Program-made: the position numbers and the translations under genes
Origin: Actinomycetota bacterium
GTDB lineage: Bacteria; Actinomycetota; Thermoleophilia; Gaiellales; Gaiellaceae
Length of the DNA stretch: 33,081 nucleotides
Reading direction: 5' to 3'
Assembly (NCBI GenBank): GCA_005883335.1
Contig: VAXM01000081.1
Location: forward strand, 1 to 33,081
The notes under the pieces: model-generated
What the model saw: only the letters and a program-made list of their open reading frames with translations
Databases searched by the model: none
What the model was told of the DNA's origin: nothing
In this document: piece after piece, positions 314-32,497 of the stretch
Position numbering within the stretch: the stretch's first letter is position 1
Layout of the letters: every line of letters starts with the position of its first letter

Positions 314-1330
314 CTAGTAGCTCAGGCGTGAGCGCCGCTCGTGCCGCTCCAGCGCGAGCTGGACGAGCCGGTCGACGAGCTCCGCGTAGGGGATGCCCGA
401 GTCTTCGAACAGCTTCGCGTAGACGCTCGTCGCGGTGAAGCCGGGGATCGTGTTCAGCTCGTTCAGGAGCACCTCGCGCTCGTCGCGGACGAAGAAGTCG
501 ACGCGCGCCATGCCCTCGCACTCGCCGGCGACGAAGGAACGGACGGCGAGCTCCTGCACGCGCTCGATTGTCTCCTGCGGCAGGCGTGGCGGGACGATCA
601 GGTCCATGCCGCCCTCTTCGTATTTCGCCGAGAAGTCGTACCAATCGGCGCCCTGGAACCCGTGCGAGACGATCTCGCCCGGGAGCGACGCGATCGGCTT
701 CTCGTTGCCGAGCACGCCGCACTCGACCTCGACTCCGGAGACGAACTCCTCGACCAGCACCTTCTCGTCGTGCCGGAACGCGAGCTCGACGGCCGGCCCC
801 AGCTCGTTCTCGGAGCCGACCTTCGTGATTCCGACCGACGACCCGAGCCGGGCCGGCTTGACGAAGACCGGGTAGCCGAACGGGTTCTCGGGTGCCTGGC
901 CCTGCCGCAGCGTGATGTTCCTGGTGACGGGGATGCCTCGGTCACGCATGACGGCCTTGAAGACGTCCTTGTCCATCGCGAGCGCCGAGCCGAGCACCCC
1001 GGCGCCGACGTACGGGACTCCCGCGAGCTCGAGCAGCCCCTGGACGGTGCCGTCCTCGCCGAAGGGACCGTGCAGCACCGGGAAGACGACGTCGACCTCG
1101 CCCAGCGTCGCGGGCACTTTCGACGTCGGCACGGGCAGCGTCTCCGCAACGGAGCCGTCGTCGGAGCCGGTGCCGAGCTCCCAGCGCCCGTCCCGCCCGA
1201 TCTCCACGGTGACGGTCTCGTAGCGCTCCGGGTCGAGCGCCTCGAGCACGGAGCGCGCCGAGGCGAGCGAGATCTCGTGCTCCGACGAGCGGCCGCCTAG
1301 GAGCACGGCAACGCGGACGCGCTTGCTCAC
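314..1330 (-). CDS. ddl: D-alanine--D-alanine ligase
   Basis: A 338-residue ATP-grasp enzyme that joins two D-alanines in the cytoplasm to make the dipeptide end of the peptidoglycan precursor. The N-terminus carries VLLGGRSSEHEISLASA, the family's first glycine-rich motif. FPVLHGPFGEDGTVQGLLE, the central KPARLGSSVGI nucleotide-binding segment and the C-terminal LLNELNTIPGFT metal-site region follow in the expected order. Length is normal. The start is GTG at 1330, whose bases overlap the pknB stop (GTGA), so the two genes are translationally coupled. Ending a PASTA-kinase operon with ddl ties precursor supply to the wall-sensing kinase. Identity is secure; only the operon placement is unusual. 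Confidence 0.96.
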   Translation of the reverse strand: MSKRVRVAVLLGGRSSEHEISLASARSVLEALDPERYETVTVEIGRDGRWELGTGSDDGSVAETLPVPTSKVPATLGEVDVVFPVLHGPFGEDGTVQGLLELAGVPYVGAGVLGSALAMDKDVFKAVMRDRGIPVTRNITLRQGQAPENPFGYPVFVKPARLGSSVGITKVGSENELGPAVELAFRHDEKVLVEEFVSGVEVECGVLGNEKPIASLPGEIVSHGFQGADWYDFSAKYEEGGMDLIVPPRLPQETIERVQELAVRSFVAGECEGMARVDFFVRDEREVLLNELNTIPGFTATSVYAKLFEDSGIPYAELVDRLVQLALERHERRSRLSY

Positions 1331-3252
1331 TGGCCGGGCGGGATGATGTGGCCGACGGTGATGGTCACGGTCGAGCCCTGCGGCGCCTTCGTGCCGCCGG
1401 TCGGGTTCTGCGAGAGCACGATCCCGTCGAGCCCGGGGTCCTGGACGTCCTGGTTCTGCACCGAGACCTTGAAGCCGGCGCTCTCGAGGGTCGAAGTCGC
1501 GGAATCCTGGTCCTGGTTCGTAACGTCCGGGACCGTCGACTGCTTCGGTCCCTTCGAGACGCTCAGCGTCACGGTCGCCCCGGGCGCGGCCGAGCCGGTC
1601 GGCTCCTGCGCGACCACGTTGTTCTTCGGCTGATCGCTGTCGACGTTCTTCCGCGCGACGGCGAAGCCGGCGCCCTGGAGCTGCGCGCTCGCCTGGTCGA
1701 ACGAGAGTCCGACCACGTACGGCACGCTAACAGGCTGCGGCCCGCTGGAGACATTGATCCGGACGCGTTTGCCTTTGAGGATCATCGTTCCGGCCGGCGG
1801 GTCCTGGGCCGTGACGGTGTCCGGCGCCTTGTTCGAGTGCACCTGATGGACATCCGGCTTCAATCCGGCCGTCGTGAGGGTGCCGACCGCGTCGTCGCGG
1901 GTCTTGCCGACGACGTCGGGCACCTCGACCTGTGGCGGCCCCCTCGAGACGGTGATGTCGACCGTGCTGTTCTTGGCGACGTGTGTGCCCTCGTTCGGGC
2001 TCTGGGCGAAGACGACCCCCTTCTCGACTGTCTCGCTCGTCTGTCGCGTGACGCGGGGCACGAGGTTCGCGTTCCGAATCTTCTGAACCGCTCGCGACTC
2101 GCGCAGGCCCTTGGCGAGCGGAACGGCCACGGTCTTGTTCGCGCCGAGCTGGTCCTGGATCTTCGTGTACGCGAACCAGGCCGCGGCGCCCGCGGCGGCG
2201 AGCAGGAGGACGGCGAGGATCCACGGCCAGACCGGCCGCCGCCGGCGTGGAGGCCCCTCGTAGCCGTAGTAGCCGGCAGGCGGGGTCCCGCCGGGAGGCG
2301 CAGGCCGGGTCGGTGCGGCCTCGCTCGGGCGCGTGATCACGGACGTCGGCGCCGCGGCGATCACGCCTGAGCCGGAAAGAACGGCCGTGGCCGCCTCCGC
2401 CGTCTCGCTGCCGACCGGCATGCCCGTGAGCACGCGCTCGAGGTCGGCGTCCATCTGCTCGGCCGACGGGTAGCGGTCGGCCGGATCCTTCGCTAGCGCA
2501 CGCAGCACGACGAGGTCGAGGTCGTGCGGCACCTCGGGTCGCAGCTCCGACGGCGGCTTCGGCACCTCGGAGAGGTGCTTCATCGCGATCTCGAGCGGCG
2601 TCTCGCCCGTGAACGGCACCTGGCCTGTGAGGAGCTCGTAGAGGACGACCCCGACGGAGTAGAGATCCGAGGTCTGGTCGACCGGTGCGCCGCGCGCCTG
2701 CTCGGGCGAGAGGTACTGCGCGGTGCCGATGATCGAGCCGACCTCCGTCATCTGGCTCGCACCGGAGCGGGCGATCCCGAAGTCCGTCACTTTCAGGCGC
2801 CCCTCCGGGCCGACCAGCACGTTGTGCGGCTTGATGTCGCGGTGCACGATCCCGTGCCGGTGCGCGAAGCCGACCGCCGCGAGGATCTGGCGCGCGTACT
2901 CGACCGACGTCTTCACCGGTGCGGGCCCGCGGCTGACGATCAGCTCCTTGAGCGATCGCCCGTCGAGGTACTCCATCGCGATGTAGTAGGTGCCCTCGGC
3001 CGTGCCGCGGTCGTAGACGGAGACGATGTTCGGGTGCGAGAGCCCGGCCGCGTTCTTGGCCTCGCGGCGGAAGCGCTCCACGAACGAGTCGTCGGCGGCG
3101 TGCCGGTCGTTGAGGATCTTGATCGCGACGCGGCGGCCGAGCTCCTGGTCCTCGGCCAGGTAGACGTCCGCCATCCCGCCCGTGCCGAGCTTGCGCACGA
3201 TCCGGTAGCGCCCGTCGAAGACGGTGCCGATCAGGGTGTCAGAGACAGCCAT
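1327..3252 (-). CDS. pknB: PASTA-domain Ser/Thr protein kinase (PknB type)
   Basis: A 641-residue membrane kinase that senses peptidoglycan or lipid II and phosphorylates wall and division proteins. The kinase domain covers residues 17-275: glycine loop LGTGGMADVY, Lys45 in VAIKIL, catalytic HRDIKPHN at 137-144, DFG at 157-159 and activation segment ending GTAQYLSPEQ. A Pro-rich juxtamembrane stretch leads to one transmembrane helix at about 341-362. Four PASTA repeats follow outside the cell (about 375-641), marked by the recurring VPDV/VPYV and SxGP elements. I chose ATG 3252 because it directly precedes the conserved TLIGTVFDGRYRIVRKLG start; a longer frame to 3429 encodes unrelated residues. 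It follows pbpA after 127 bases and overlaps ddl by 4. A short upstream TAACCT may be its -10 box. Confidence 0.96.
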   Translation of the reverse strand: MAVSDTLIGTVFDGRYRIVRKLGTGGMADVYLAEDQELGRRVAIKILNDRHAADDSFVERFRREAKNAAGLSHPNIVSVYDRGTAEGTYYIAMEYLDGRSLKELIVSRGPAPVKTSVEYARQILAAVGFAHRHGIVHRDIKPHNVLVGPEGRLKVTDFGIARSGASQMTEVGSIIGTAQYLSPEQARGAPVDQTSDLYSVGVVLYELLTGQVPFTGETPLEIAMKHLSEVPKPPSELRPEVPHDLDLVVLRALAKDPADRYPSAEQMDADLERVLTGMPVGSETAEAATAVLSGSGVIAAAPTSVITRPSEAAPTRPAPPGGTPPAGYYGYEGPPRRRRPVWPWILAVLLLAAAGAAAWFAYTKIQDQLGANKTVAVPLAKGLRESRAVQKIRNANLVPRVTRQTSETVEKGVVFAQSPNEGTHVAKNSTVDITVSRGPPQVEVPDVVGKTRDDAVGTLTTAGLKPDVHQVHSNKAPDTVTAQDPPAGTMILKGKRVRINVSSGPQPVSVPYVVGLSFDQASAQLQGAGFAVARKNVDSDQPKNNVVAQEPTGSAAPGATVTLSVSKGPKQSTVPDVTNQDQDSATSTLESAGFKVSVQNQDVQDPGLDGIVLSQNPTGGTKAPQGSTVTITVGHIIPPGQ

Positions 3253-3325
3253 CGCTAAATCAGAGGTTAGAGACCATGCCGGTAGGGGGTCCGTTTCCGT
3301 AGTACGCCCAGACGCTGCGTTAGAC

Positions 3326-3352
3326 GGCCGCGCCGGCCAAGCCGTCGCGGCC
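3326..3352 (-). other. Strong GC hairpin in the pbpA-pknB gap
   Basis: Arms 3326-3332 (GGCCGCG) and 3346-3352 (CGCGGCC) pair. After one mismatch an inner 4-bp stem CGGC/GCCG closes a 3-base loop. It lies in the only sizeable gap (127 bases) of an operon otherwise built with 4-base overlaps. No T-run follows on the minus strand, so it is probably not a full intrinsic terminator. A processing site, partial attenuator or RNA-stability element separating pbpA from pknB-ddl are all possible. Confidence 0.4.
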
Positions 3353-3379
3353 TCTTGGTCGGCGTCGCAAGCGAGCGCC

Positions 3380-4867
3380 TCACGGACCCGACCTGCCTGT
3401 GAGCAGCGATTCCATGATTGCCTTAGCAATCGGCGCGGCCGTTGTCCCGCCGGCGCCGGTCTGGTCTTGGAGTACTACAGCGACCGCGACACGCGGTGCA
3501 TCCGCAGGCGCGAACGCCACGAACCAGGTCGTGTTGAGGCGGCCGCCCGTCTCGGCGGTTCCCGTCTTCCCGGCCACCTTGATGCCCGGAATTTGCGCTG
3601 CCGTGCCGGTGCCGCCGGTCACGACGGCCTGCATCATCTGGTTCAGCGCGGCCGCGGTGGTGGTCTTCATCGCGCGCTTGTACTTGTGCGGCTTCGTGCG
3701 CGTGACGGTCCCGCCACCTGGAGCCGTCACGCGTTGCACCACGTAGGGGCGCATCACGACACCGCTATTTGCGACTCCCGCCGCGACCATCGCCATCTGC
3801 AGCGGCGTCGTGAGCATCCGCTCCTGGCCGAAGGCGAGGCGGCCGGGGTCGACCTGCGTCTCGGCGTGACGCGGGTCGAAGAGCCTGCCGTGGTCGTACA
3901 GCCCGCTCGGGGCCCGCTCGTTCGAGGGAGTCTCGAGCGGCGGATCCTTGTAGAAGCCGAAGCGCTTGGAGGCGTTGAGGATCGACTGCGCGCCGATCGT
4001 CTTGCCGATCTCGCAGAAGACGGCGTTGATCGAGTGCTCGAGCGCCTGCAGGAAGTTGACCGGGCCGAAACTCTCCACGCGGCCCTGGTCGGCGAAGTTG
4101 TTCACCTTCCGGCCGTACTCGATGCAGTAGCCCTTGTCGACGAAGCTCGAGTTGATCGTGTAGCGGCCGGAGTCGAGCGCGGCGGTGCTCGTCACGACCT
4201 TGAAGCTCGACCCGGGCACGAAGAGGCCGGCGGTCGCGCGGTTCAACAGTCGCGAAGCGGGCTGGCACGGCGCCCCCGCGCGCGCGATCGCGCCGAAATT
4301 CGATTCGACGAGGTTCGGGTTGAAGGTCGGCTGTGATGCCATCGCGAGCACCGCTCCGGTCCGCGGGTCGAGCGCGACGGCGGCTCCGCACTTGCCCGCG
4401 AGCTGGGCCATCGCGACGCGTTGTGCACGCGGACGAACGGTCAGCCAGAGATCGTTGCCCTTGATCGTCGCGCCCCGCAGCTGGGTGAGCGTCTTGTCCA
4501 GGATCGTCTTCAGGTTCGTGTTCGAGCCCGTCAGGTAGTCGTTCTCCGACGCCTCGAGGCCCGTGCGGGAGCGGGAGAGCGTCGAGTAGCCGACGAGGTT
4601 GGCGAAGAGGCCCGCCTTTGGATAGCGCCGGAAATAGACGGTCTGCCCCGACTTCGTCTTCTTCTTCCGGTTGGTCGCGAGGATCTCGCCGTCGGCGGCG
4701 CGGATCAGCCCGCGCTTGATCGAGAACTGCGCGACGAGCTTGATCGCGTTGTCCTGACGGTCGGCCAGCCCTGCGGCCGCCCAGGTCTGCCAGTACGTCG
4801 TCCCGACGATCAGCGCGCCGATCAGCGCGAGACCGAGGAGAGCCAGTTGGGCGATCTGCTTGTTCAT
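3380..4867 (-). CDS. pbpA: Class B penicillin-binding protein (peptidoglycan transpeptidase)
   Basis: A 495-residue membrane-anchored D,D-transpeptidase that cross-links peptidoglycan. One N-terminal transmembrane segment (about residues 6-28) is followed by the PBP dimerisation region, including RGLIRAADGEILA. The transpeptidase domain has all three active-site motifs in order: SSFK (in PGSSFKVVTS), SIN (in EHSINAVFCEIG) and KTG (in AGKTGTAETG). Length matches mycobacterial PbpA. The start ATG at 4867 overlaps the stop of the upstream polymerase gene (ATGA). That coupling fits the known pairing of a SEDS glycan polymerase with a class B PBP. It is a likely target, with its partner, of the flanking kinase and phosphatase. 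Confidence 0.95.
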   Translation of the reverse strand: MNKQIAQLALLGLALIGALIVGTTYWQTWAAAGLADRQDNAIKLVAQFSIKRGLIRAADGEILATNRKKKTKSGQTVYFRRYPKAGLFANLVGYSTLSRSRTGLEASENDYLTGSNTNLKTILDKTLTQLRGATIKGNDLWLTVRPRAQRVAMAQLAGKCGAAVALDPRTGAVLAMASQPTFNPNLVESNFGAIARAGAPCQPASRLLNRATAGLFVPGSSFKVVTSTAALDSGRYTINSSFVDKGYCIEYGRKVNNFADQGRVESFGPVNFLQALEHSINAVFCEIGKTIGAQSILNASKRFGFYKDPPLETPSNERAPSGLYDHGRLFDPRHAETQVDPGRLAFGQERMLTTPLQMAMVAAGVANSGVVMRPYVVQRVTAPGGGTVTRTKPHKYKRAMKTTTAAALNQMMQAVVTGGTGTAAQIPGIKVAGKTGTAETGGRLNTTWFVAFAPADAPRVAVAVVLQDQTGAGGTTAAPIAKAIMESLLTGRSGP

Positions 4868-6126
4868 CTGGCGGGTGCGTTCGAGCGGTTGGAGATCAGC
4901 AGGAGCCCGGCGAGGAGCACGAAGTTGGCGACGACGCTCGACCCCCCGTAGCTGACGAACGGAAGCGTCACGCCCGTCAGCGGGATCATCCTCAGGATCC
5001 CGCCGACGATGATGAACGTCTGCAGGGCGAACGAGAACGTCAGCCCGGCCGCGAGCAGCTTCGAGAAGCCGTCGTCGGCGAGCATCGCGACCTTCATGCC
5101 GCGCGCGATGAAGAGCATGAAGACGAGCAGCAGCGCCGCGGCGCCGACCAGGCCGAGCTCCTGGGCGATCGCCGAGTAGATGAAGTCGGTGTTCGCTGAC
5201 GGGATCAGCGTCGCGCCGTTCGTCGTCGTGAACGTGCCCTTGCCGAGGCCCGCGCCGCCGAAGCCCCCGTTCGAGATCGAGTAGAGCGACTGCGTGATCT
5301 GGTATCCGCTCGTGTGGATGTGGGGCCACGGGTCGATCCAGATCTCGACGCGGGTGCGGACGTGGCCGATCAGTTTGTAGGCACCGGCTGCGCCGCCCAC
5401 GAACAGCACCCCGCCGATCAGGACGTACGCGAGCCGTCCCGTGGCGACGTAGAGCATCGCCAGGAAGATCCCGAAGTAGAGAAGCGCCGAGCCGAGGTCG
5501 TTCGTCTCGACGAGGACGAGCATCGCGCCGCCCCAGATCACGAGCAGCGGGCCGAAGTCCTTCAAGCGCCCCTGGGCGAGCACCTCGCGCTTCTCCCGCA
5601 GGTAGCCGGCGAGGAAGACGATCAGCAGCACCTTCGCGATCTCGCCGGGCTGGAACTGGAGCGAGCCGAAGTGGATCCAGAGCCGCGCGCCGTTGATCGA
5701 CTGCCCGAACACGGGCAGCGCCGGCAGGACGAGCAGGCCGATCGCGGCCAGGCCGAAGAGGTACTTGTAGCTCTCGAGCCGCCGGTAGTCGCGGTGGAGG
5801 AGGAACAGCGTCGCGGCGAGCGCGCCGACGGCGACGACGATCCAGAGGCCCTGGCGGAAGGCGTCGGTCGGGTCGAGCCGGTAGATCTCCGTCAGGCCGA
5901 CCGCGGTCAGCAGCGCGGCCATCGGCAAGAGGTATGGATCAGCGTTGGGGACGGTAAGCCGGGAGACCAGGTGCGCGGCCAGGTAGAGCGCGAAGAAGAA
6001 TCCCGCGTAGGCGAGGGAGCCAGTCGAGACGACCGCCTGCCGCGCGATGTAGACGCTCGCGAAGCCGATCGCGGTCAGCATCCCGACGACGATCAGGTTC
6101 GCGAGCTCGCGGTTCCTCAGGCTCAT
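4864..6126 (-). CDS. rodA: SEDS-family peptidoglycan glycosyltransferase (RodA/FtsW)
   Basis: A 420-residue polytopic membrane protein with about ten to twelve hydrophobic helices. It polymerises lipid II into glycan strands. SEDS hallmarks are visible: GARLWIHFGSLQFQPGEIAK, the VETNDLGSALLYFG segment with its conserved acidic residue, NTDFIYSAIAQELGLVG, and the C-terminal PFVSYGGSSVVANF. The gene lies between pstP and pbpA with ATGA overlaps on both sides, the conserved actinobacterial order, which favours RodA over FtsW as the name. Sequence alone does not separate elongation from division roles. Confidence 0.94.
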   Translation of the reverse strand: MSLRNRELANLIVVGMLTAIGFASVYIARQAVVSTGSLAYAGFFFALYLAAHLVSRLTVPNADPYLLPMAALLTAVGLTEIYRLDPTDAFRQGLWIVVAVGALAATLFLLHRDYRRLESYKYLFGLAAIGLLVLPALPVFGQSINGARLWIHFGSLQFQPGEIAKVLLIVFLAGYLREKREVLAQGRLKDFGPLLVIWGGAMLVLVETNDLGSALLYFGIFLAMLYVATGRLAYVLIGGVLFVGGAAGAYKLIGHVRTRVEIWIDPWPHIHTSGYQITQSLYSISNGGFGGAGLGKGTFTTTNGATLIPSANTDFIYSAIAQELGLVGAAALLLVFMLFIARGMKVAMLADDGFSKLLAAGLTFSFALQTFIIVGGILRMIPLTGVTLPFVSYGGSSVVANFVLLAGLLLISNRSNAPAR

Positions 6127-7295
6127 TTCCCCAGCTGCTCCTCGTAGCTGCGCACCTCGTCCATTGCGGAAGACTCGCTGCGCAGGCTGTGGTCGAAGAG
6201 TTTCTTCCGCTCCGAACGACTGAGCTGGGCGGTCAGCAGCGGGCTCTCGTAGACCGTGCGGTAGAGGTGGACGTTGCCGGCGATGTTCCAGGGGACGCCT
6301 TGGTAGACCGCGACGTGGCCATCCGGCTCCGCGCCGACGAAGTGCGAGCGCCAGAGGCCCCAGACTCCGAGGCCGCCGGCGACCAGGACGAGGAGCAGCA
6401 GCAGGGAGACGAAGACGACGCGGCGCCGGACCGGGTGCTCCCTGCGCTCGCGGCCTCTCCGCCCGGTCTGGACGGCGGGAACCGCGTCGAGCTCGTCGAG
6501 GGTGGCGTCATCACCCGTTTCAGCGCCTGCCTCTTGCTCGGGAGGAGGCAAGACCACGGTCCGCTCACCCGCATCCTCTTCTGCCTGGAGCTCGAAGAAG
6601 ACGACGGTGATGTTGTCCTCGCCGCCGCCCTTGTTCGCCGCGCGCACGAGGGCCTTGGCGGCGGCGCGGACGTCGTCGCGGTGGCGGCGGATCTCCTCGA
6701 GGATTCCTTCGTCGCTCACCATGGAGGTGAGCCCGTCCGAGCAGATCATGAAGAGGTCGCCGGGCTTGGAGTCGATCGAGAACGTGTCGACGTCGACGTC
6801 CGGGTCGGTCCCGAGCGCGCGCGTCACGACCGAGCGCTGCGGATGCGTCTCGGCGTCCTCGGGCGAGAGCCTGCCGCTGCGAACGAGCTCGGCGACGAGC
6901 GAATGGTCCTCGGTCAGCTGCTCGAGCTTGCCGTCGCGCACGAGGTACGCGCGCGAGTCGCCCACGTGACCGATCCAGACGCGGCCCTCCTCGAAGAGCG
7001 CGACGGTCATCGTCGTGCCCATCCCCGAGAGGGACGCGTCCTCAGACTGGCGCTGGTAGACGCGTCGGTTCGCTTCCTGGATCAGCTCGTCGACGCGGCG
7101 CCGGCCGTCGCCGCGACCATCGCTCGAGTCGTCGCGTACCGCCGCAGCGGCGAGGCTCGACGCCAGCTCGCCGGCCTGAGCGCCGCCGATCCCGTCGGCG
7201 ACCGCGAACAGCGGGGGCTCGCAGACGTAGGCGTCCTCGTTGTGCCGGCGCCTGCGGCCGGGATCCGTGACTGCGGCGCTTTGCCCGAGATTCAA
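6123..7295 (-). CDS. pstP: PP2C-family Ser/Thr protein phosphatase (PstP type)
   Basis: A 390-residue membrane phosphatase that reverses phosphorylation by the flanking kinases. The cytoplasmic PP2C domain (about 1-240) shows the metal-site motifs RRRHNEDAY, VADGIGG, GMGTTM, GHVGDSRAY, CSDGLT and GEDNITVVF. An acidic linker and a basic stretch precede one transmembrane helix near residues 292-315, then a roughly 75-residue extracytoplasmic tail, as in mycobacterial PstP. The start is TTG at 7295, chosen because it overlaps the fhaB stop as TTGA, begins exactly at the conserved N-terminus and has GAGG a few bases upstream. The rare TTG start may lower its translation relative to its neighbours. 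Confidence 0.94.
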   Translation of the reverse strand: MNLGQSAAVTDPGRRRRHNEDAYVCEPPLFAVADGIGGAQAGELASSLAAAAVRDDSSDGRGDGRRRVDELIQEANRRVYQRQSEDASLSGMGTTMTVALFEEGRVWIGHVGDSRAYLVRDGKLEQLTEDHSLVAELVRSGRLSPEDAETHPQRSVVTRALGTDPDVDVDTFSIDSKPGDLFMICSDGLTSMVSDEGILEEIRRHRDDVRAAAKALVRAANKGGGEDNITVVFFELQAEEDAGERTVVLPPPEQEAGAETGDDATLDELDAVPAVQTGRRGRERREHPVRRRVVFVSLLLLLVLVAGGLGVWGLWRSHFVGAEPDGHVAVYQGVPWNIAGNVHLYRTVYESPLLTAQLSRSERKKLFDHSLRSESSAMDEVRSYEEQLGK

Positions 7296-7783
7296 GCTTC
7301 GTACCTCAGCTCGGTCTCGCCGATGCGGACGATGTCACCTGCGGTGAGCCGTTTCGGCCGAGTCAGGCGGATCCCGTTCAGATAGGTGCCGTTGGTCGAG
7401 CCGATGTCCTCGAGCCAGACCCCGTCGCGACGCGGCTCGAGGCGCGCGTGCGACGAGGAGGCGTACTCGTCGCGCTTCAGCTCGACGTCGTTCTGAGAGC
7501 TCCTGCCGAAGGTCAGCGGCGATGCGTCGAGATCCCACTCGTCCCCCTCGGTAAGCGCCGGGCTCTTCACCACGACGATCTTCCCGGCCTCGATGTGCGG
7601 CGCCTCGCCACCGAGCCCGGGGATCGAGCCTGGCGCGAGCACGAAGCTTTCCTGCGGGAGGCGCAAGTCGCGGGCGGCCGTCCGCACGATGCGCCAGATG
7701 AACAGGTAGAGGAGGACGAGGAAGGCGATTTTGAGAAGGAGCAGCGCCTCCTCGACCGCGATCGAGCCTGGCAGGGCGGTCAC
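7292..7783 (-). CDS. fhaB: Membrane-anchored FHA-domain protein (FhaB/FipA type)
   Basis: A 163-residue protein with one N-terminal transmembrane helix (about residues 11-33) and a C-terminal FHA phosphothreonine-binding domain. FHA signatures are FGRSSQNDVEL, SSSHARLE and DIGSTNGTYLNG. FHA proteins of this operon recruit phosphorylated partners of PknA/PknB. I use GTG 7783: it gives a GTGA overlap with the fhaA stop and a protein that starts just before the membrane helix. A longer frame to 7984 only reads through the fhaA coding region. It overlaps pstP downstream by 4 bases. Confidence 0.93.
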   Translation of the reverse strand: MTALPGSIAVEEALLLLKIAFLVLLYLFIWRIVRTAARDLRLPQESFVLAPGSIPGLGGEAPHIEAGKIVVVKSPALTEGDEWDLDASPLTFGRSSQNDVELKRDEYASSSHARLEPRRDGVWLEDIGSTNGTYLNGIRLTRPKRLTAGDIVRIGETELRYEA

Positions 7784-8547
7784 TCCGTCTCCCGCCGGAA
7801 GACGAGCTCGGTCGAGCCGAGCGTGATGCGATCGCCCTGCCGCAGCTTCGCCCGCTTCTGGCGCCGCCCGTTCACCTCCATCCCGTTGGTCGAGTCGAGG
7901 TCGATCACCCAGTAGGCGGCGCCTTCCTGCCGAACCTCCGCGTGTCGACGCGAGACGTTCGGGTCGGGCAGCTGGATGTCGCACTCCTTCGAGCGTCCGA
8001 TGACGGCCTGGCCGCCGTCGAGCTCGTGTTTCGTGCCGTTGAACGTCAGGCTGACGGTCTCGCGGCCTAGGCCGAGCTCCTCAGCCGAGACGGCTTCGGT
8101 CTCCACGGGCGGCTTGCGGTAGACCATCGTCGCCCCGGGCTCCGGCTGCGAGGGCGGCTCGCCGGGCTGCGGAGCGGCTCCCTGCACCATTCGCGTCGCG
8201 ATCCCGAACTCGCCCATCTCGAGGTCGTCGTCGGTCTCGAACTGGACGACCGGATCGGAGAGCAGCTCGTAGCGCTCGCGGCGCGCGTTCTCGGCGAGGT
8301 ACTGCTGCAGCTCGCTTCGCAGCGAGTCCTCGTAGCTCGCGAACTGCTCTCGGTCGGACGGCGCGAGGTAGACCGTGTACTCGTTCGGCGCGTAGACGCG
8401 CGAGACGGAGATGACGCGGTGATCCTCCATCTCCTTGACGAGCTTGCGCGCCAGCTCGACCGGCTGCACGTGCGTCCGGAAAGCGCGCCCGAAGACGCCC
8501 TCGAAGAGGCCTTCGATCTTGTGCTCGATGTTCCGCAGGACGCTCAT
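7780..8547 (-). CDS. fhaA: DUF3662 plus FHA-domain protein (FhaA type)
   Basis: A 255-residue cytoplasmic adaptor. The N-terminal 120 residues match DUF3662: they begin SVLRNIEHKIEGLFEGVFGR and contain QPVELARKLVKEMEDH and VYAPNEYTVYLAP. A Pro-rich linker follows, then a C-terminal FHA domain with IGRSKECDIQLPD, VSRRHAEVR and LDSTNGMEVNG. In mycobacteria FhaA binds phosphorylated MviN/MurJ and regulates peptidoglycan synthesis; that role is inferred here from family and position. ATG 8547 lies 30 bases after the upstream kinase stop, and the gene overlaps fhaB by GTGA. Confidence 0.95.
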   Translation of the reverse strand: MSVLRNIEHKIEGLFEGVFGRAFRTHVQPVELARKLVKEMEDHRVISVSRVYAPNEYTVYLAPSDREQFASYEDSLRSELQQYLAENARRERYELLSDPVVQFETDDDLEMGEFGIATRMVQGAAPQPGEPPSQPEPGATMVYRKPPVETEAVSAEELGLGRETVSLTFNGTKHELDGGQAVIGRSKECDIQLPDPNVSRRHAEVRQEGAAYWVIDLDSTNGMEVNGRRQKRAKLRQGDRITLGSTELVFRRETE

Positions 8548-8577
8548 CGGACCCCGGTTCTACCCGGGCCTTGAACT

Positions 8578-10176
8578 CTAACCCCGGGCCTTCAGCGCCA
8601 GTACGGTGCAGGTGGTCCAGGCGGCGAGGACGAGCGGCACCGCTGCAACCGTGGGCGCGGGAAGGAGCGTGACGGCTATCAGCCCCGCGCCGAGGCCCGC
8701 GATCCCCCAGAGCCCCCGCTCGCGCGCGAAGGGCACGGCGACCGCGGCGGCTGCGAGCGCAAGCGCCTCGAGCCCGAGCCAGGGGCGGGCCGTGAGCGCG
8801 TGCCAGAGGGCGACCGCGACGGCAAAGGGATCCTCGCTGCCGGCGATGCCGAGCCCCTTCGGCGGCGCGGCGCTCGTGAAGGGGAGCGATGTGTGCCGAA
8901 GTCCCGCGACGAGCGCGGCGAGCAGGACGGCGCCCCCGACCTGGAGCGCGCGTCTCGGCAGGCTCTTCACGCCCTGGGCGGCGAGCGGCAGGAGGCCGAG
9001 CGCGGCGATCGGCGCCAGCAGCGGCCCGCAGGCGAGGAACAGCCCTTCGCGCGGAGCGCGCCAGGAAAGGGCGAGCCAGGCGCAGGCAACCGCCGCGTAG
9101 AGCAAGGCGAGCCCGGACGAGATGTTCCCGAGCGGGAAGACGGGCACGGCGAGCGCGAACGCGAGTCCCAGCCGCGGCTTCGTGAGCGTGAGGAAGAACG
9201 CCAGCAGTCCCAGCAAGGGCGCGAGCAGCCCCGGGAAGAACGGCAGCTCCGCCGCGGTCCAGCCGGTGAAGAGCCCTGCCGCGGCGGGGGCGGCCAATCG
9301 CACCGGGACGCGCACGGAGACGGCGGGCGGCCTTGCCCGTCGCCGCAGCCGCTCGGCGAAGCTGTCGCGCAAGTCGCCCGCGAGCATCCGCGCCGCAGGC
9401 CTCGCGGCAGGGTCGAGCGCGAGCATCCGGTCGACGAGAGCGCAGAGCGGGCGCGGCAGGTCGGGCCGGACCTGAGCGAGCGGCGTGGCTCCTGTCTCGA
9501 TCCGCTGCGCCGTCTCCAGCAGCGAGCCGTTCCAGAACGGATGCCAGCCGGCGAGCGACTCCCAGAGCAGGACGCCGACGGCCCACACGTCCGCCGCGGG
9601 CTCGCCCGGCTCGCCGTGGAGCCGTTCGGGTGGGACGTACGCAAGCGTTCCGGGCACGTCGCCCGTCGCGGTCAGCGACTCCTCTTCGGCCAGCTGCGCC
9701 AACCCGAAGTCGAGCAGCCGCACCGAGAGCTCCTCGCCCTCGGCGACGAGCACGTTCGAAGGCTTTACGTCGCGATGCACGATTCCCCGCGAGTGCGCGT
9801 GCGCGAGCGCCTCGAGGATCTGGGCCCCGGCCTCGACGGCTTCCGCGTCGTTGAGCGCCCCCGCCCGGAGCGCCTGCCGCATCGTCTGGCCCGGCACGTA
9901 CTCGTACGCGATGTAGACGTTGCGCGAGTCGCGTTCGAGCCCGTAAGCGCGCAGGCAGCGCTCGTGCCGGAGCCGCGCCGCCGCGAGCGCCTCGCGTTCC
10001 GCCCGGCTGGCCGCCTTTCCTTCGCGCGGGACGATCTTCAGCGCGACGTCGAGCCCGGTGTTCTCGTCGCGCGCGAGCCAGACCGAGCCCGAGCCGCCGC
10101 TTCCGAGAGGGCGCAGCGGCCGGTAGCGCCCGGCGACGAGCTCGCTTGAAGAGAGCGCAACTGCAGCTTCGGCCAT
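8578..10176 (-). CDS. Ser/Thr protein kinase with polytopic membrane C-terminus
   Basis: A 532-residue protein at the head of the wall operon. Residues 15-270 form a complete Hanks-type kinase: GSGGSGSV loop, Lys47 in VALKIV, HRDVKPSN at 134-141, DFG at 156-158 and VPPE in place of APE. The remaining 260 residues are almost continuous hydrophobic helices (perhaps eight) with no PASTA repeats. It occupies the operon slot next to the FHA genes but is not PknA-like, since PknA has one helix and sits beside pknB. The membrane half may sense a lipid or wall intermediate; that is inference. No clear Shine-Dalgarno precedes ATG 10176. The divergent gap to 10269 has a TAGAGT box at 10232-10237. Confidence 0.88.
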   Translation of the reverse strand: MAEAAVALSSSELVAGRYRPLRPLGSGGSGSVWLARDENTGLDVALKIVPREGKAASRAEREALAAARLRHERCLRAYGLERDSRNVYIAYEYVPGQTMRQALRAGALNDAEAVEAGAQILEALAHAHSRGIVHRDVKPSNVLVAEGEELSVRLLDFGLAQLAEEESLTATGDVPGTLAYVPPERLHGEPGEPAADVWAVGVLLWESLAGWHPFWNGSLLETAQRIETGATPLAQVRPDLPRPLCALVDRMLALDPAARPAARMLAGDLRDSFAERLRRRARPPAVSVRVPVRLAAPAAAGLFTGWTAAELPFFPGLLAPLLGLLAFFLTLTKPRLGLAFALAVPVFPLGNISSGLALLYAAVACAWLALSWRAPREGLFLACGPLLAPIAALGLLPLAAQGVKSLPRRALQVGGAVLLAALVAGLRHTSLPFTSAAPPKGLGIAGSEDPFAVAVALWHALTARPWLGLEALALAAAAVAVPFARERGLWGIAGLGAGLIAVTLLPAPTVAAVPLVLAAWTTCTVLALKARG

Positions 10177-10269
10177 GACTCGGAGCTTTCACGACCGCTC
10201 GGACGAATCCTGCGCCCTCCGGACGACTCGATAGAGTGAGCGCGCTTTTTCCTGCAATTCCCCCGAGTT

Positions 10270-11430
10270 ATGAGCGAACGCGATGTCGACATCGACTTCG
10301 ACTTCTTCGAAGAGGAGGAGCCGACGCAGGAGTCGTCCCGGGTAGAGCGGGTCATCCGCCGGCCCGGCGGCCCCCGCGGCCCTCGGCGTCCGCCGCGCGG
10401 ACCCCAGAATCTGACCCCGCTCTTACGGCTCGTCGGCCTGGTCGCCTTCGCGATCCTGATCATCGTTCTGCTCGTCTTCTGGATCAAAAGCTGCCAGGCC
10501 AGCAGCAAGTCGAGCACGTACAAGAGCTACATGACGAAGATCTCCGAGGTGGCTTCGTCCTCGCAGCAGATCGGCAGTCAGCTGAGCACGACGCTGCTCT
10601 CGCCGGGCCTCAAGCGGCCGCAGCTCCAGAGCAAGATCTCCGGGCTCGCACGCCAGGAGCAGCTCGACGTCGACCGCGCCCGCGGGATCACGCCGCCGGG
10701 CCCGCTGCTCACGGAGCACCAGGCCGTGGTCCAGGCGCTTCAGTTCCGCGTCAGCGGGCTGACCGGCCTCTCCGATGCGCTTGGTGCGACCGCGTCCACC
10801 AAGAACACGACGAAGGCGGCCGGGGCGCTCGCGTCGCAGATGCAGCGGCTGCTCGCCAGCGACGTGGTCTGGGCCGACTCCTTCAAGGCTCCTGCGGAGA
10901 CCGAGCTGCGCCGCCAGGGCGTCACCGGCACGAACGCGGCGGGAGGCGCGCTCGTCCCGGACTCGCATTTCCTACAGAACCCGGCCCTCGCGACCGCGAG
11001 CGCGATGACGACGGTCGTCGAGCGCCTCAAGGGCGCCTCCGCCGGCACGGCGAACTGCCCGTGCGGCACCGAGCTCATCTCGGTCAAGGTGCTCCCGGCC
11101 GGCAAGGAGCTGAGCACATCCACGCAGAACGACATCGTCGTCACCGCCAGCATGTCGTTCCAGGTGACGGTCAAGAACTCCGGCAACGTGCAGGTGTTCT
11201 CGGTCCCGGTCAAGCTGACGGTCGAACAGGCGAAGGGCGGCAACGTCGTCAAGACGGCGAAGATCGGCTTCCTCAACACCGGCGCCGAGACGACCGTGAC
11301 CTTCGGCAACTTCCCGCAGCTGAACTTCACGACCCCGGCGACGATCAAGATCGAGGTCACTCCGGTGGCGGGCGAGACGAAGACCGACAACAACTCGGCG
11401 GACTACCCGGTCATCTTTTCGGTCGCGTAG
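10270..11430 (+). CDS. Membrane-anchored protein with CARDB-like extracellular domain, unknown function
   Basis: A 386-residue protein I cannot name. The N-terminus is very acidic (DVDIDFDFFEEEEP), then comes an Arg/Pro/Gly-rich cytoplasmic stretch, then one transmembrane helix at about residues 50-70. The long outer part begins with a Ser/Lys/Gln-rich helical region (about 75-200). It ends in a beta-rich domain (about 265-386) with VTVKNSGN, VPVKLTVEQ and ETKTDNNSADYPV, which look like a CARDB or Ig-like adhesion fold. A Cys pair (NCPCG) precedes that domain. It diverges from the kinase gene and leads a rightward group with DUF4446, so a cell-envelope role is likely. ATG 10270 lacks a good Shine-Dalgarno. 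Confidence 0.8.
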   Translation: MSERDVDIDFDFFEEEEPTQESSRVERVIRRPGGPRGPRRPPRGPQNLTPLLRLVGLVAFAILIIVLLVFWIKSCQASSKSSTYKSYMTKISEVASSSQQIGSQLSTTLLSPGLKRPQLQSKISGLARQEQLDVDRARGITPPGPLLTEHQAVVQALQFRVSGLTGLSDALGATASTKNTTKAAGALASQMQRLLASDVVWADSFKAPAETELRRQGVTGTNAAGGALVPDSHFLQNPALATASAMTTVVERLKGASAGTANCPCGTELISVKVLPAGKELSTSTQNDIVVTASMSFQVTVKNSGNVQVFSVPVKLTVEQAKGGNVVKTAKIGFLNTGAETTVTFGNFPQLNFTTPATIKIEVTPVAGETKTDNNSADYPVIFSVA

Positions 11431-18819: not shown

Positions 18820-19863
18820 CTACGCCGCAAACGCGTCTTCGATCAGCGCCTGCGCGGTGACCGACTCGATCGTCTGCAGGATGCGGCCGGTGATGCGGTA
18901 CGGATCGGCCATCGAGTTCGGCCGACGATCTTCGAGGTAGCCACGGTGGCCGCTGTTGACGAAGCTGTGCGGGATGCGGATCGACGCCCCGCGATCGGCG
19001 ATGCCGTACGTGAAGTCGTCGATCGCCGCCGTCTCATGGAGCCCGGTCAGGCGCAAGTCGTTTTCGGGGCCGTAGCACGCGATGTGCTCGTCGCGCGCCT
19101 CCGAGAACGCGCTCATCAGCGCGGCGAAGTACTCCTCGCCGCCGATCTCGCGCAGGTGCTTCGTCGAGAAGTTCGTGTGCAGCCCCGAGCCGTTCCAGTC
19201 GACGTCGACGCCGAGCGGCTTCGGATGGAAGTTGACGTCGACGCCGTAGCGCTCGCAGAGGCGGAGCATCAGGTACCGCGCGATCCAGAGCTCGTCGGCT
19301 GCGCGCTTGGCGCCCTTGCCGAAGATCTGGAACTCCCACTGCCCCTTTGCGACCTCGGCATTCACGCCTTCGATCGCGATGCCGGCCTCGATGCAGAGGT
19401 CGATGTGCTCGTCGACGATCTGCCGCGCGATGTCGCCCACATTCTTGAAGCCGACGCCCGTGTAGTACTCGCCCTGCGGCGCGGGAAATCCCTCCTTCGG
19501 GAACCCGAGCGGCGAGCCGTCCTTGTACAGGAAGTACTCCTGTTCGAATCCGAACCAGGCGTCGGGGTCGTCTGCGATCGCGGCGCGGTTGTTCGACGGA
19601 TGCGGCGTTCCGTCGGGCAACAGCACCTCGCACATGACGAGGTGGCCGCGGTTGCGCGCAGGGTCGGGGAAGAGCGCGACCGGCTGGAGGAAGCAGTCCG
19701 AGCTCGAGCCGTCCGCCTGGCGTGTCGAGCTGCCGTCGAAGTTCCACAGCGGCAGCTGGTCGAGGGTCGGCTCCGTTTCGAAGTCGACGATCTTCGTCTT
19801 GCTGCGCAGGTTCGGAACGGGCTCGTAGCCGTCGAGCCAGATGTACTCGAGCTTGAACTTCAT
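18820..19863 (-). CDS. glnII: Type II (eukaryote-like) glutamine synthetase
   Basis: A 347-residue enzyme that makes glutamine from glutamate, ammonia and ATP. Length and motifs are those of the octa/decameric GSII class found in Streptomyces, Frankia and rhizobia. The motifs are LPLWNFDGSSTRQA, HPSNNRAAI, WFGFEQEYFLYK, AKGQWEFQIF, VDWNGSGLHTNFSTKHLRE and ASIRIPHSFVNSGHRGYLEDRRP. It lacks a GSI-type adenylylation region. ATG 19863 has a strong AGGAGG 7 bases upstream, which rules out the longer frame. It heads the operon with the acetyltransferase, PII and Amt genes. Its leader carries a terminator and a competing hairpin, implying attenuation control. Confidence 0.96.
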   Translation of the reverse strand: MKFKLEYIWLDGYEPVPNLRSKTKIVDFETEPTLDQLPLWNFDGSSTRQADGSSSDCFLQPVALFPDPARNRGHLVMCEVLLPDGTPHPSNNRAAIADDPDAWFGFEQEYFLYKDGSPLGFPKEGFPAPQGEYYTGVGFKNVGDIARQIVDEHIDLCIEAGIAIEGVNAEVAKGQWEFQIFGKGAKRAADELWIARYLMLRLCERYGVDVNFHPKPLGVDVDWNGSGLHTNFSTKHLREIGGEEYFAALMSAFSEARDEHIACYGPENDLRLTGLHETAAIDDFTYGIADRGASIRIPHSFVNSGHRGYLEDRRPNSMADPYRITGRILQTIESVTAQALIEDAFAA

Positions 19864-19890
19864 CCTGGTTCCTCCTCGTCTCGGACCAAC

Positions 19891-19925
19891 AAAAAAGGGC
19901 CCACGACTCTCTGGTCGTGAGGCCC
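19891..19925 (-). terminator. Intrinsic terminator inside the type II glutamine synthetase leader
   Basis: On the minus strand the stem is 19925-19914 paired with 19907-19897 (one bulged T at 19920), with a 6-base loop. Six T residues (plus-strand A at 19891-19896) follow directly. It lies between the stop of the serine protease gene and the glutamine synthetase Shine-Dalgarno, only about 28 bases before the start codon. The first bases of its 5' arm are also the 3' arm of an upstream hairpin (19919-19934), so the two cannot form together. It could simply end the protease transcript, but position and competing structure suggest an attenuator. Confidence 0.75.
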
Positions 19926-19959
19926 CAATGCCTCCGTGCCCGCCTTCGGCGGCAAGCAC
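19919..19959 (-). promoter_or_regulatory. Hairpins competing with the terminator in the glnII leader
   Basis: On the minus strand, hairpin P2 is GAGGC (19934-19930), loop ATTGGG, GCCTC (19923-19919). Its 3' arm is part of the terminator's 5' arm. One base upstream lies another hairpin (19959-19936): an outer 4-bp stem GTGC/GCAC, a 3-base bulge and an inner 5-bp stem with a GAA loop. P2 has a six-base loop with A at position 1 and G at position 4, the recognition pattern known for ANTAR antiterminator targets. The upstream hairpin does not have such a loop. Confidence 0.55.
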
Positions 19960-19966
19960 TGACCGC

Positions 19967-19995
19967 AACTTAGCTGAACAAACGGACGGCGTCTA
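19967..19995 (-). promoter_or_regulatory. Candidate promoter of the glnII operon
   Basis: On the minus strand TAGACG (19995-19990) and TAAGTT (19972-19967) are separated by exactly 17 bases and resemble -35 (4 of 6) and -10 boxes. The -35 box includes the stop codon of the protease gene. Transcription would start near 19960, exactly at the base of the first leader hairpin. Read-through from the protease gene is the alternative source of transcript. Confidence 0.45.
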
Positions 19996-26406: not shown

Positions 26407-26412
26407 GGGTTG

Positions 26413-27822
26413 GTGGACGAAACCGGTCGCCACCTGCGCCTCCTGACCGAGACGATCGCGGCGGTCAACTCGACGCTCGATCTCGAGGAGGTGCTCTCCC
26501 TCGTCGCGAGCAAGGTTGCGGACGCGCTCGACGCCGACGCGTGCTTCGTCTACCTCTACGACGAGCAGGCCGACGAGCTCGTGCTGCGCGCGACGCACGG
26601 CACGCGGGTCGAGGAGATGACCGGCCGCCCGCGGATGCGCCCGGGAGAGGGCATCACAGGGTCGGCCGCCGAGGCGCGGGCGCCTGTGATGATCCCGGCA
26701 CAAGCGCACCTGGACGAGCGCTTCAAGGCGTTCCCGAACTTGCCCGAGGACGAGTACGAGTCGATCCTCGCGGTGCCCATCCTGGCCCGGGAGAAGCTTG
26801 AGGGCGCGGTGAACGTCCGAACACGCGAGCCGCGCGACTTCAGCGCGGCGGAGATCGAGCTGCTCCTGGCGATCGCCGCCCAGGTCGCGCAGACGATCGA
26901 GCACGCGAAGCTCTACGCGCAGGCGCAGCGCCGGGTCGACGAGCTCGAGGCGCTGGCGCGGATCTCCGAGGCCGTGTCCGAGTCGCTGTACCTCGAGGAG
27001 TCGCTGGAAGCGATCGTCGAGGCGACGGTCGACGCTGTGGGGGCAACCGGCGCGGCGCTCGTGCTCGAGGACGGCGAAGTCGTCTGGCCGGAGGGCCGCG
27101 CGGGGAAGCATGCGGTACGCGTGCCCTTGCGGTGGAAGGGGCGCCAGGTCGGGGAGCTCGTCTGCGACCGGGACACGCCGTTCTCGTCGGACGATCGCGC
27201 CCTGCTCGGCTCGATCGCAAGCCACGCGGCGGTTGCGCTCGAGCACGGGCGGGCGGTGCTGCGCGGCGTGCTGGCCCAGGAGATCCACCATCGCGTCAAG
27301 AACAACCTGCAGACGGTCGCGTCGCTGCTCCGGCTGCAGGCGCGGACGGATGAGGTCGACGCGCAGAAGGCGCTGAACGACTCCGTGAACCGGATCCTCG
27401 CGATCGCTGCGGTGCACGAGGTGCTGACAGAGCGCCGCGACGACGACGTGGAGCTGGACGAGCTGCTCGACCGGCTGCGCGCGATGCTCGTGCAGGGGCT
27501 GGGGACGGCGAAGACAGTTGAGGCGTCGTTGGAGCCGGTGTCGCTGGGAGGAAACCGGGCGACGGCGCTCGCGCTCGTGTTTTCGGAGCTTCTTCAGAAC
27601 GCGCTCGAGCATGGCGGCGACGCGGTGCGCGTAGAGCTGGCGCGCCGTGACGGCGAGGTCGTGCTTTCCATCGCGGACGACGGGCACGGGCTCGAGGGCG
27701 AGCCTGCTTCCGGGACGGGGCTTTCGATCGTGCGCGCGCTCGTCCAGGACGAGCTCGGCGGGCGGCTTGCGCTCGAGTCGGACGGCGGGCTCAGGGCCGA
27801 GGTCGTGTTCCCGGCGACCTGA
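26413..27822 (+). CDS. pdtaS: GAF-domain sensor histidine kinase (PdtaS type, HisKA_2)
   Basis: A 469-residue cytoplasmic kinase without membrane helices. Two GAF-like domains occupy about residues 20-165 and 185-282. A HisKA_2 dimerisation domain follows with QEIHHRVKNNLQTVASLLRLQ; the phosphorylated His is 292 or 293. The C-terminal HATPase shows SELLQNALEHGG, SIADDGHGL and GTGLSIVRALV. This is the architecture of kinases paired with ANTAR response regulators (PdtaS in mycobacteria, which has GAF and PAS). The likely partner lies at 28485-29057, separated by one reversed gene. GTG 26413 is preferred over TTG 26410 because of the -10 box. The GAF ligand is unknown. Confidence 0.92.
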   Translation: MDETGRHLRLLTETIAAVNSTLDLEEVLSLVASKVADALDADACFVYLYDEQADELVLRATHGTRVEEMTGRPRMRPGEGITGSAAEARAPVMIPAQAHLDERFKAFPNLPEDEYESILAVPILAREKLEGAVNVRTREPRDFSAAEIELLLAIAAQVAQTIEHAKLYAQAQRRVDELEALARISEAVSESLYLEESLEAIVEATVDAVGATGAALVLEDGEVVWPEGRAGKHAVRVPLRWKGRQVGELVCDRDTPFSSDDRALLGSIASHAAVALEHGRAVLRGVLAQEIHHRVKNNLQTVASLLRLQARTDEVDAQKALNDSVNRILAIAAVHEVLTERRDDDVELDELLDRLRAMLVQGLGTAKTVEASLEPVSLGGNRATALALVFSELLQNALEHGGDAVRVELARRDGEVVLSIADDGHGLEGEPASGTGLSIVRALVQDELGGRLALESDGGLRAEVVFPAT

Positions 27823-31801: not shown

Positions 31802-32497
31802 TTAGGCGGTTGAGGTCGCGTTTGCGTCGATTACAAGAAAATCAGTGAGAGCGCAGACCGGCGAGGCGGATGAGTCGAGCCCCCAGCAGGTCGGATATGT
31901 GCCGTCTCCAAATCCGGAGTGAAACGCGATGACGTTGGCACCGCCGACCGCGAAGTCAGCCCAGCCCCAGGTCGGGATGTAGGTTGCTTCCAGCGCGGCG
32001 CTGAGAGGATCCAAGCTCGTGGACGGCTCGTGGTCGTAGTGCTGACTGAGTACGTCCGCGAGTTGCGCCAACCCCTCGGGACTCGCAAAACAGCCGGTCC
32101 CCGCGTCGACCGGATAACCGTAGAACCCATCGGCACCTAGCGTGCTCGCGTCCTGTCCCGGCCAAAGGGCGTCCTCCCAGTCGTCAGCTCGCGCGCTCGC
32201 GAGGTGTACAAGTGCAGCCGCGACCCTCTGGTCATCATTGTCCTCGAACTCGGCCACAAATACTTCGACTGGATAGGTGCCGGGCGCGACCTGCCGCTCG
32301 AAGGCGACGGCGTCGTACGCGCTCGTGATCGGGTCGCAGGCACAGAGCTTCCCCGAGGGAAGCCGAACTGATCCCACGGAGTGGTTGCGCAGGATGGCTG
32401 GACGGTTCGCAATGGTGACTCTCACTTCGTCCCTCCGCGTCAGTTCATAGAGCAGCCGGGCGGCCTGAAGCGTCTCGCTGGTTGCGCGGCTTGACAT
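31802..32497 (-). CDS. DUF4241 family protein
   Basis: A 231-residue soluble protein. The DUF4241 pattern is visible: SVRLPSGKLCACDPI, PGTYPVEVFVAEF, RVAAALVHL, the GYPVDAGTGCFASPEG segment, and the Gly-rich end with CWGLDSSASPVCALTDFLV. The family has no proven function that I know of. Composition differs from its surroundings: a hand-counted line at 32221-32280 is 53% GC against 73% at 31021-31080 in the ABC-F gene, suggesting recent acquisition. ATG 32497 lacks a Shine-Dalgarno and lies 21 bases after the transketolase stop, so it may be translated from that transcript. Confidence 0.82.
   Translation of the reverse strand: MSSRATSETLQAARLLYELTRRDEVRVTIANRPAILRNHSVGSVRLPSGKLCACDPITSAYDAVAFERQVAPGTYPVEVFVAEFEDNDDQRVAAALVHLASARADDWEDALWPGQDASTLGADGFYGYPVDAGTGCFASPEGLAQLADVLSQHYDHEPSTSLDPLSAALEATYIPTWGWADFAVGGANVIAFHSGFGDGTYPTCWGLDSSASPVCALTDFLVIDANATSTA

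Follow-up and report, generated by a model that had tools for sequence, protein, structure and literature searches.

A Ser/Thr kinase with a polytopic membrane domain at the head of the wall operon in Thermoleophilia and other Actinomycetota

Control of wall growth in actinobacteria is known mainly from mycobacteria, through the kinases PknA and PknB, and PknA has one membrane helix after its kinase domain. The window analysed here (the whole stretch of 33,081 nucleotides of contig VAXM01000081.1, from a 2.3 Mb draft genome of the Gaiellaceae that is 91.7% complete) contains a wall operon headed by a kinase of another build, in which the catalytic domain is followed by a polytopic membrane domain. 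The question raised by this locus is whether the gene is a displaced pknA or a second wall kinase in its own right, and what its membrane domain would contribute.

The kinase gene and the operon around it

The kinase is encoded by a single open frame of 532 residues located at 8578-10176 on the minus strand. Its kinase domain (about residues 13-270, positions 9367-10140) was delimited by a Pfam match together with the catalytic residues, where the Pkinase family (PF00069) covers residues 19-265 with an E-value of 8.4e-49 and 166.8 bits against a cut-off of 31.7. Residues K47, E62, D136, N141 and D156 are present together with T169 of the activation loop. In the family, K47, E62, D136, K138, N141, D156 and G158 were observed in all 58 operon-head rows and in two extra-operon rows while T169 occurs in 57 of the 58, and a pseudokinase was ruled out on the intact catalytic motifs. 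No PASTA repeats were found by Pfam in the 532 residues and the score for the PknB/Stk1 model NF033483 is 196.3 bits, below the cut-off of 450, which rules out a PASTA kinase.

The gene is the first in an operon with the order kinase-fhaA-fhaB-PP2C-rodA-pbpA-pknB-ddl, where all genes are on the minus strand. The fhaA gene (7780-8547; FhaA_N and FHA domains by Pfam) starts 30 bp past the kinase stop and is followed by fhaB, an FHA-domain protein by Pfam whose listed frame spans 7292-7984 and whose true start is probably nearer 7780. Pfam matches further identify a PP2C phosphatase in the PstP position (6123-7295), an FtsW/RodA/SpoVE glycosyltransferase (4864-6126) and, at the end of the operon, the D-Ala-D-Ala ligase Ddl (314-1330). 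Between the last two are a PbpA-like penicillin-binding protein (3380-4867; its listed frame, to 5329, overlaps rodA) and pknB (1327-3429, start uncertain), a kinase with four PASTA domains that scores 642 bits with NF033483 against the same cut-off of 450. No second kinase was found between the penicillin-binding protein and pknB in the window operon. The close spacing at the operon head is general, as the distance from kinase stop to fhaA start has a median of 9 nt and is at most 60 nt in 52 of 57 loci (the 58th, L190, whose membrane part falls in another frame, is left out of the median). The initial annotation had placed a complete kinase, without PASTA repeats, upstream of fhaA, and these statements agree with our results. 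Its membrane domain of 260 residues was confirmed as multi-helix, with nine hydrophobic peaks, and shortened to about 240 residues.

On the 5' side, an intergenic stretch (10177-10269) separates the kinase from a divergent frame at 10270-11430 on the plus strand. This frame has a sub-threshold CARDB match (22.5 against 22.7 bits) and may be a real gene that has the intergenic region in common with the kinase. No match to a sigma-70-type promoter was found in a scan of 7600-10400. Elsewhere in the window, we noticed a glutamine-synthetase-like frame (18820-19968, minus strand) that looks divergent or partial, with a catalytic-domain match only at positions 21-156 of 344, a GAF sensor with a HisKA_2/HWE-type histidine kinase (26410-27822, plus strand) and a DUF4241 protein (31802-32497, minus strand; 148.5 bits).

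The membrane domain and its distribution

The membrane domain was delimited by hydropathy and charge to about residues 293-532 (8581-9300, minus strand). Hydropathy gives nine partly overlapping hydrophobic peaks in this region, where a simple count yields five non-overlapping strong segments; taken together with charge, the profile is best described as about eight predicted helices and, at 382-399, a hydrophobic segment that resembles a hairpin. Clusters of lysine and arginine are found family-wide at R293 (the N-terminal edge; 84% of the rows), 333-335, 373-376, 404-409 and 485-489, and in the family profile these residues lie in the predicted inside loops while the long stretch 423-469 is net acidic. 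This charge pattern fits a predicted N-in, C-in topology with a cytoplasmic kinase, the helices and hairpin-like segment as above and the stretch of about 423-469 as a large loop on the outside. AlphaFold, run on the window sequence with L053 and L058 (three sequences), gave a mean pLDDT of 49, too poor for fold or topology.

No Pfam or PDB family was found above chance for the membrane domain, with no transporter or MurJ match among them, and a known membrane family was ruled out on these chance-level matches. A match to 2-succinylbenzoate-CoA ligase (E 0.01), a soluble enzyme, was taken as compositional. No column is invariant across lineages at the 90% level in the alignment of the profile described below (A4), a pattern compatible with both an anchor and a sensor. 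Furthermore, the loops are poorly conserved and no conserved charged residue was found within the membrane segments.

HHalign comparisons establish, at the level of sequence profiles, a common ancestry of the kinase-membrane fusion across lineages. The membrane domains align over the greater part of their length, and profiles of all lineages are linked via chains of matches with probabilities of at least 90% over about 120-330 columns, for example f1-f3 (99%), f1-f6/f7 (98%), f6/f7-f9 (99.6%), f9-f29 (98%), f29-f17 (99.9%), f23-mixed group (97.6%) and f5-f8 (95%). The linkage runs through intermediates, since direct comparisons such as f1-f8 (5.5%) and f1-f23 (25%) are weak, and RodA profiles reach at most 0.4% with any membrane-domain profile.

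The full-length fusion was observed at 80% identity in genomes of the same genus, at 48-66% in other genera of the family and at 30-33% in a further two families within the order. The same fusion is present, at 55% identity and in the same operon, in a Thermoleophilia bacterium from Lake Baikal. Over all genomes searched, the number of family members clearly exceeds one hundred. These relatives across genomes and families rule out an accident of assembly or of a single genome. Within the class, a profile built from 55 membrane domains (A4, with L033 and L206 excluded) found the domain in 58 of 61 genomes, which were chosen for at least 90% completeness, and one of the three misses, G045, does carry the fusion (L206).

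The initial annotation had proposed a search for the fusion and its operon position across Actinobacteria. In the phylum, A4 found the membrane domain in at least 53 of 148 genomes, where the best 18 candidates per genome were scored and absences are uncertain for large genomes of high GC content; an earlier profile (A3), which misses divergent members and for which the best 7 candidates per genome were scored, had given at least 31 of 396. The domain lies directly upstream of fhaA in 47 of the 53 carriers. Forty of these were assigned by eye from the position relative to FhaA_N, with a gap of 25-289 bp between the end of the domain and a following FhaA_N match in the same orientation, and seven were added from locus maps (L192, L197, L199, L278, L279, L281 and L282). 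The other six are four genomes of family f31, G044 (contig edges) and G269 (a marginal match of 36 residues). Among the 33 genomes of named loci, four matched: Thermoleophilia bacterium, Actinomycetota bacterium SZAS-16, Gaiellaceae bacterium and Actinobacteria bacterium AC_58. No match was found in 11 other named actinobacterial genomes, among them Streptomyces, Amycolatopsis, Micromonospora, Bifidobacterium, a Nitriliruptorales and an Acidimicrobiaceae, nor in 18 genomes of other phyla.

Copies outside the wall operon were also observed. In f31, the fusion is outside the operon in all four genomes examined (L274, L275, L276 and L277) and adjoins unrelated genes in the two that were checked, so the fusion may work independently of the operon. 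G480 and G490 have second copies outside the operon, and that of G344 lies at the end of a contig. The extra-operon copies L201:491-2212 and L269:4097-5830 each converge tail to tail on a gene whose protein product begins with a zinc-ribbon-like motif, CPRCG. In addition, G378 and G408 (f51; L283 and L284) have second membrane-domain matches in long frames in which a kinase domain was not detected; these frames are possibly diverged kinases.

Head kinases and kinases in the PknA position

The initial annotation took pknA beside pknB as the usual state and the head kinase as standing in its place. In 100 loci where fhaA was detected, the gene order was mapped with the window proteins as queries against all frames. 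Of these loci, 58 have a head kinase, 14 an additional kinase in the PknA position (after pbpA and before pknB), 28 neither and none both, shares that are biased as many of the 58 head loci were chosen for a membrane-domain match. Several C-terminal membrane segments are in the frame of 57 of the 58 head kinases, the membrane part of L190 being in an overlapping frame. A less biased set consists of 59 loci taken from the FhaA_N list (one to five per family, among the positions listed), where 20 have a head kinase, 14 a kinase in the PknA position and 25 neither. Restricting the count to the 51 loci that extend upstream by 2 kb or more and show a kinase after the penicillin-binding protein gives 17, 13 and 21. 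Eighteen loci were added later, 11 of them with a head kinase before fhaA, and the f4 genome G027 has the operon with no head kinase upstream of fhaA. With a kinase in the PknA position in 14 of 59 loci and neither kinase in 25, a pknA next to pknB is one arrangement among several and not the rule.

Two features mark PknA, namely a gene between pbpA and pknB and a single membrane helix. The window kinase lies before fhaA and has five strong segments (nine overlapping peaks), while most rows of PknA-position kinases have one membrane segment. The kinase domains were also found to separate in trees. In a FastTree tree of 169 rows, the head kinases and two extra-operon copies fall on one side of a branch labelled 99*, and in a quick IQ-TREE tree of 78 rows, 26 of them head kinases (G000other_L267_7829 was left out), a head clade (98*), a PknA-position clade (93) and a PknB clade (95*) were recovered. 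The f23 head kinases L221 and L223 are absent from the trees, with matched kinase stretches of less than 200 residues. Kinases of four other phyla are nearer to the PknA-position and PknB clades than to the head clade. A joint clade of head and PknA-position kinases was not rejected by the AU test (p-AU 0.102), so one may have descended from the other. The statement that the head kinase takes the place of PknA is sustained by the mutual exclusion in the 100 loci and opposed by the different operon site and the separate clade.

A single-membrane-helix kinase was noticed on contig C155 of the window genome (L264:7330-8847). Its relatives L041, L042, L043, L205 and L207 sit just beyond ddl on the opposite strand, and L279, L290 and L291 have a kinase in a similar site beyond ddl. 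In the IQ-TREE tree, the C155 kinase and its relatives group near PknB, but a grouping with PknA was not rejected (p-AU 0.357), and it may be the PknA-like kinase of the class. A typical pknA elsewhere in the genome, together with the fusion outside such operons, had been named as what would speak against the initial reading. No other kinase of the genome falls in the PknA clade, where the C155 kinase is the one left in doubt by the AU test, and the fusion is outside the operon only occasionally, in f31, G480 and G490.

Possible roles and comparison with known systems

We consider it probable that the head kinase is an active second wall kinase that works with PknB, the PP2C phosphatase and the FHA adaptors, where the membrane domain would serve as an anchor and probably as a sensor. 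Its anatomy, intact catalytic residues, operon position, spread over the phylum and the common ancestry of the fusion are observed, and its activity, co-expression, topology, partners and sensing are inferred. The N-terminal Hanks-type kinase domain would lie in the cytoplasm while the C-terminal domain would cross the membrane about eight times. Most likely, the kinase would phosphorylate regulators of wall growth in step with PknB, the resulting phospho-threonines would be bound by FhaA and FhaB, and PP2C would remove this phosphorylation. The membrane domain would hold the kinase at the elongation machinery (RodA-PBP) and relay a signal that arises in the membrane or close to it. As FHA readers, PP2C and PknB are encoded in the same operon, a kinase-FHA-phosphatase circuit acting on wall growth is the simplest role. 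The 28 of 100 fhaA operons that have neither head kinase nor PknA count against this reading.

An alternative is that pknA moved to the head of the operon and exchanged its single helix for the polytopic domain while it kept its job. The mutual exclusion and the unrejected joint clade would agree with such a move, and PDB chains of PknA are among the best matches of the head kinase domain. However, the separation of head and PknA-position kinases in both trees, the kinases of four other phyla that lie nearer to PknA and PknB than to the head clade and the different operon site make it unlikely. The membrane domain might also be a multi-helix anchor only, on a constitutive kinase without sensing. 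Its fast sequence drift, with no invariant positions and poorly conserved loops, fits this, but its length, helix pattern and homology are kept throughout the class and in ten or more families outside it, which is beyond the need of an anchor, and a single helix is enough in PknA and PknB; we regard this reading as doubtful.

By analogy with mycobacterial MviN, a polytopic flippase whose attached kinase-like domain recruits FhaA, the membrane domain could instead be an effector, for instance a transporter or lipid-handling unit controlled by the kinase. A small transporter could have this size, about eight helices and such a hairpin-like segment. The kinase gene adjoins fhaA, whose known mycobacterial partner is the pseudokinase domain of MviN according to the available parts of PMC12599244 and PMC11898655, and the MurJ frame of the window genome (545 residues) is too short for a MurJ-pseudokinase fusion. 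Among the rows listed, no MurJ frame in families with a head kinase exceeds 760 residues, while in f35, f25 and f46, where PknA-position kinases were seen, these frames reach 1198-1588 residues. This hints that FhaA has a partner here other than a MurJ pseudokinase; it is only a hint, as short MurJ frames are also common in families without a head kinase. Against an effector, matches to transporter and MurJ families stay at chance level, the membrane segments hold no conserved charged residue and the kinase domain is not a pseudokinase, and we consider this reading quite improbable.

Beyond the second-kinase reading preferred here, it is conceivable, if speculative, that the head kinase is an old wall kinase whose domain forms its own class of intramembrane sensor reading a lipid-linked wall intermediate. 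In that case it would have been the first partner that PknB had in the phylum and the site where FhaA docks, later lost in other branches with its role passed to PknA and the MviN pseudokinase. From its wide spread, the fusion looks like a wall-signalling kinase of its own and not a stray PknA. Roughly one in three genomes of the phylum sample and nearly all of the class have this different membrane-embedded kinase, mostly as the first gene of this operon, which suggests a second way of coupling wall synthesis to phosphorylation. A membrane domain without a named family gains a likely role, and the identity of PknA's counterpart in other branches becomes directly testable. The operon and Hanks kinases are already known; no description of the head kinase, its polytopic domain or its spread at the operon head was found in the openly available full-text literature, outside which there may be wider surveys of bacterial kinases.

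The closest known system is PknA of Mycobacteriales, likewise a Hanks-type kinase without PASTA repeats in an fhaA-fhaB-pstP-rodA-pbpA-pknA-pknB operon, and the head kinase is probably a partner of PknB too. However, PknA is encoded between pbpA and pknB and has one helix, whereas the head kinase precedes fhaA, is polytopic and falls in a separate clade in both trees, although the AU test did not reject a joint one. PASTA kinases of the PknB/Stk1 type share the operon and a related kinase domain but differ in having PASTA repeats and one helix. The locus of PstP, rodA, pbpA and a PASTA kinase that is conserved in Actinobacteria according to the available text of PMC6554272 is the same operon, although the head kinase is not mentioned in that text. 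M. tuberculosis MviN (MurJ), which has a C-terminal pseudokinase of the ActPs3 family as described in the available part of PMC12599244, resembles the head kinase in joining a polytopic membrane unit to a kinase fold tied to FhaA. The kinase-like domain of MviN is dead and follows the MurJ flippase, whereas that of the head kinase is intact and N-terminal to a membrane unit of about 240 residues that has no match to MurJ.
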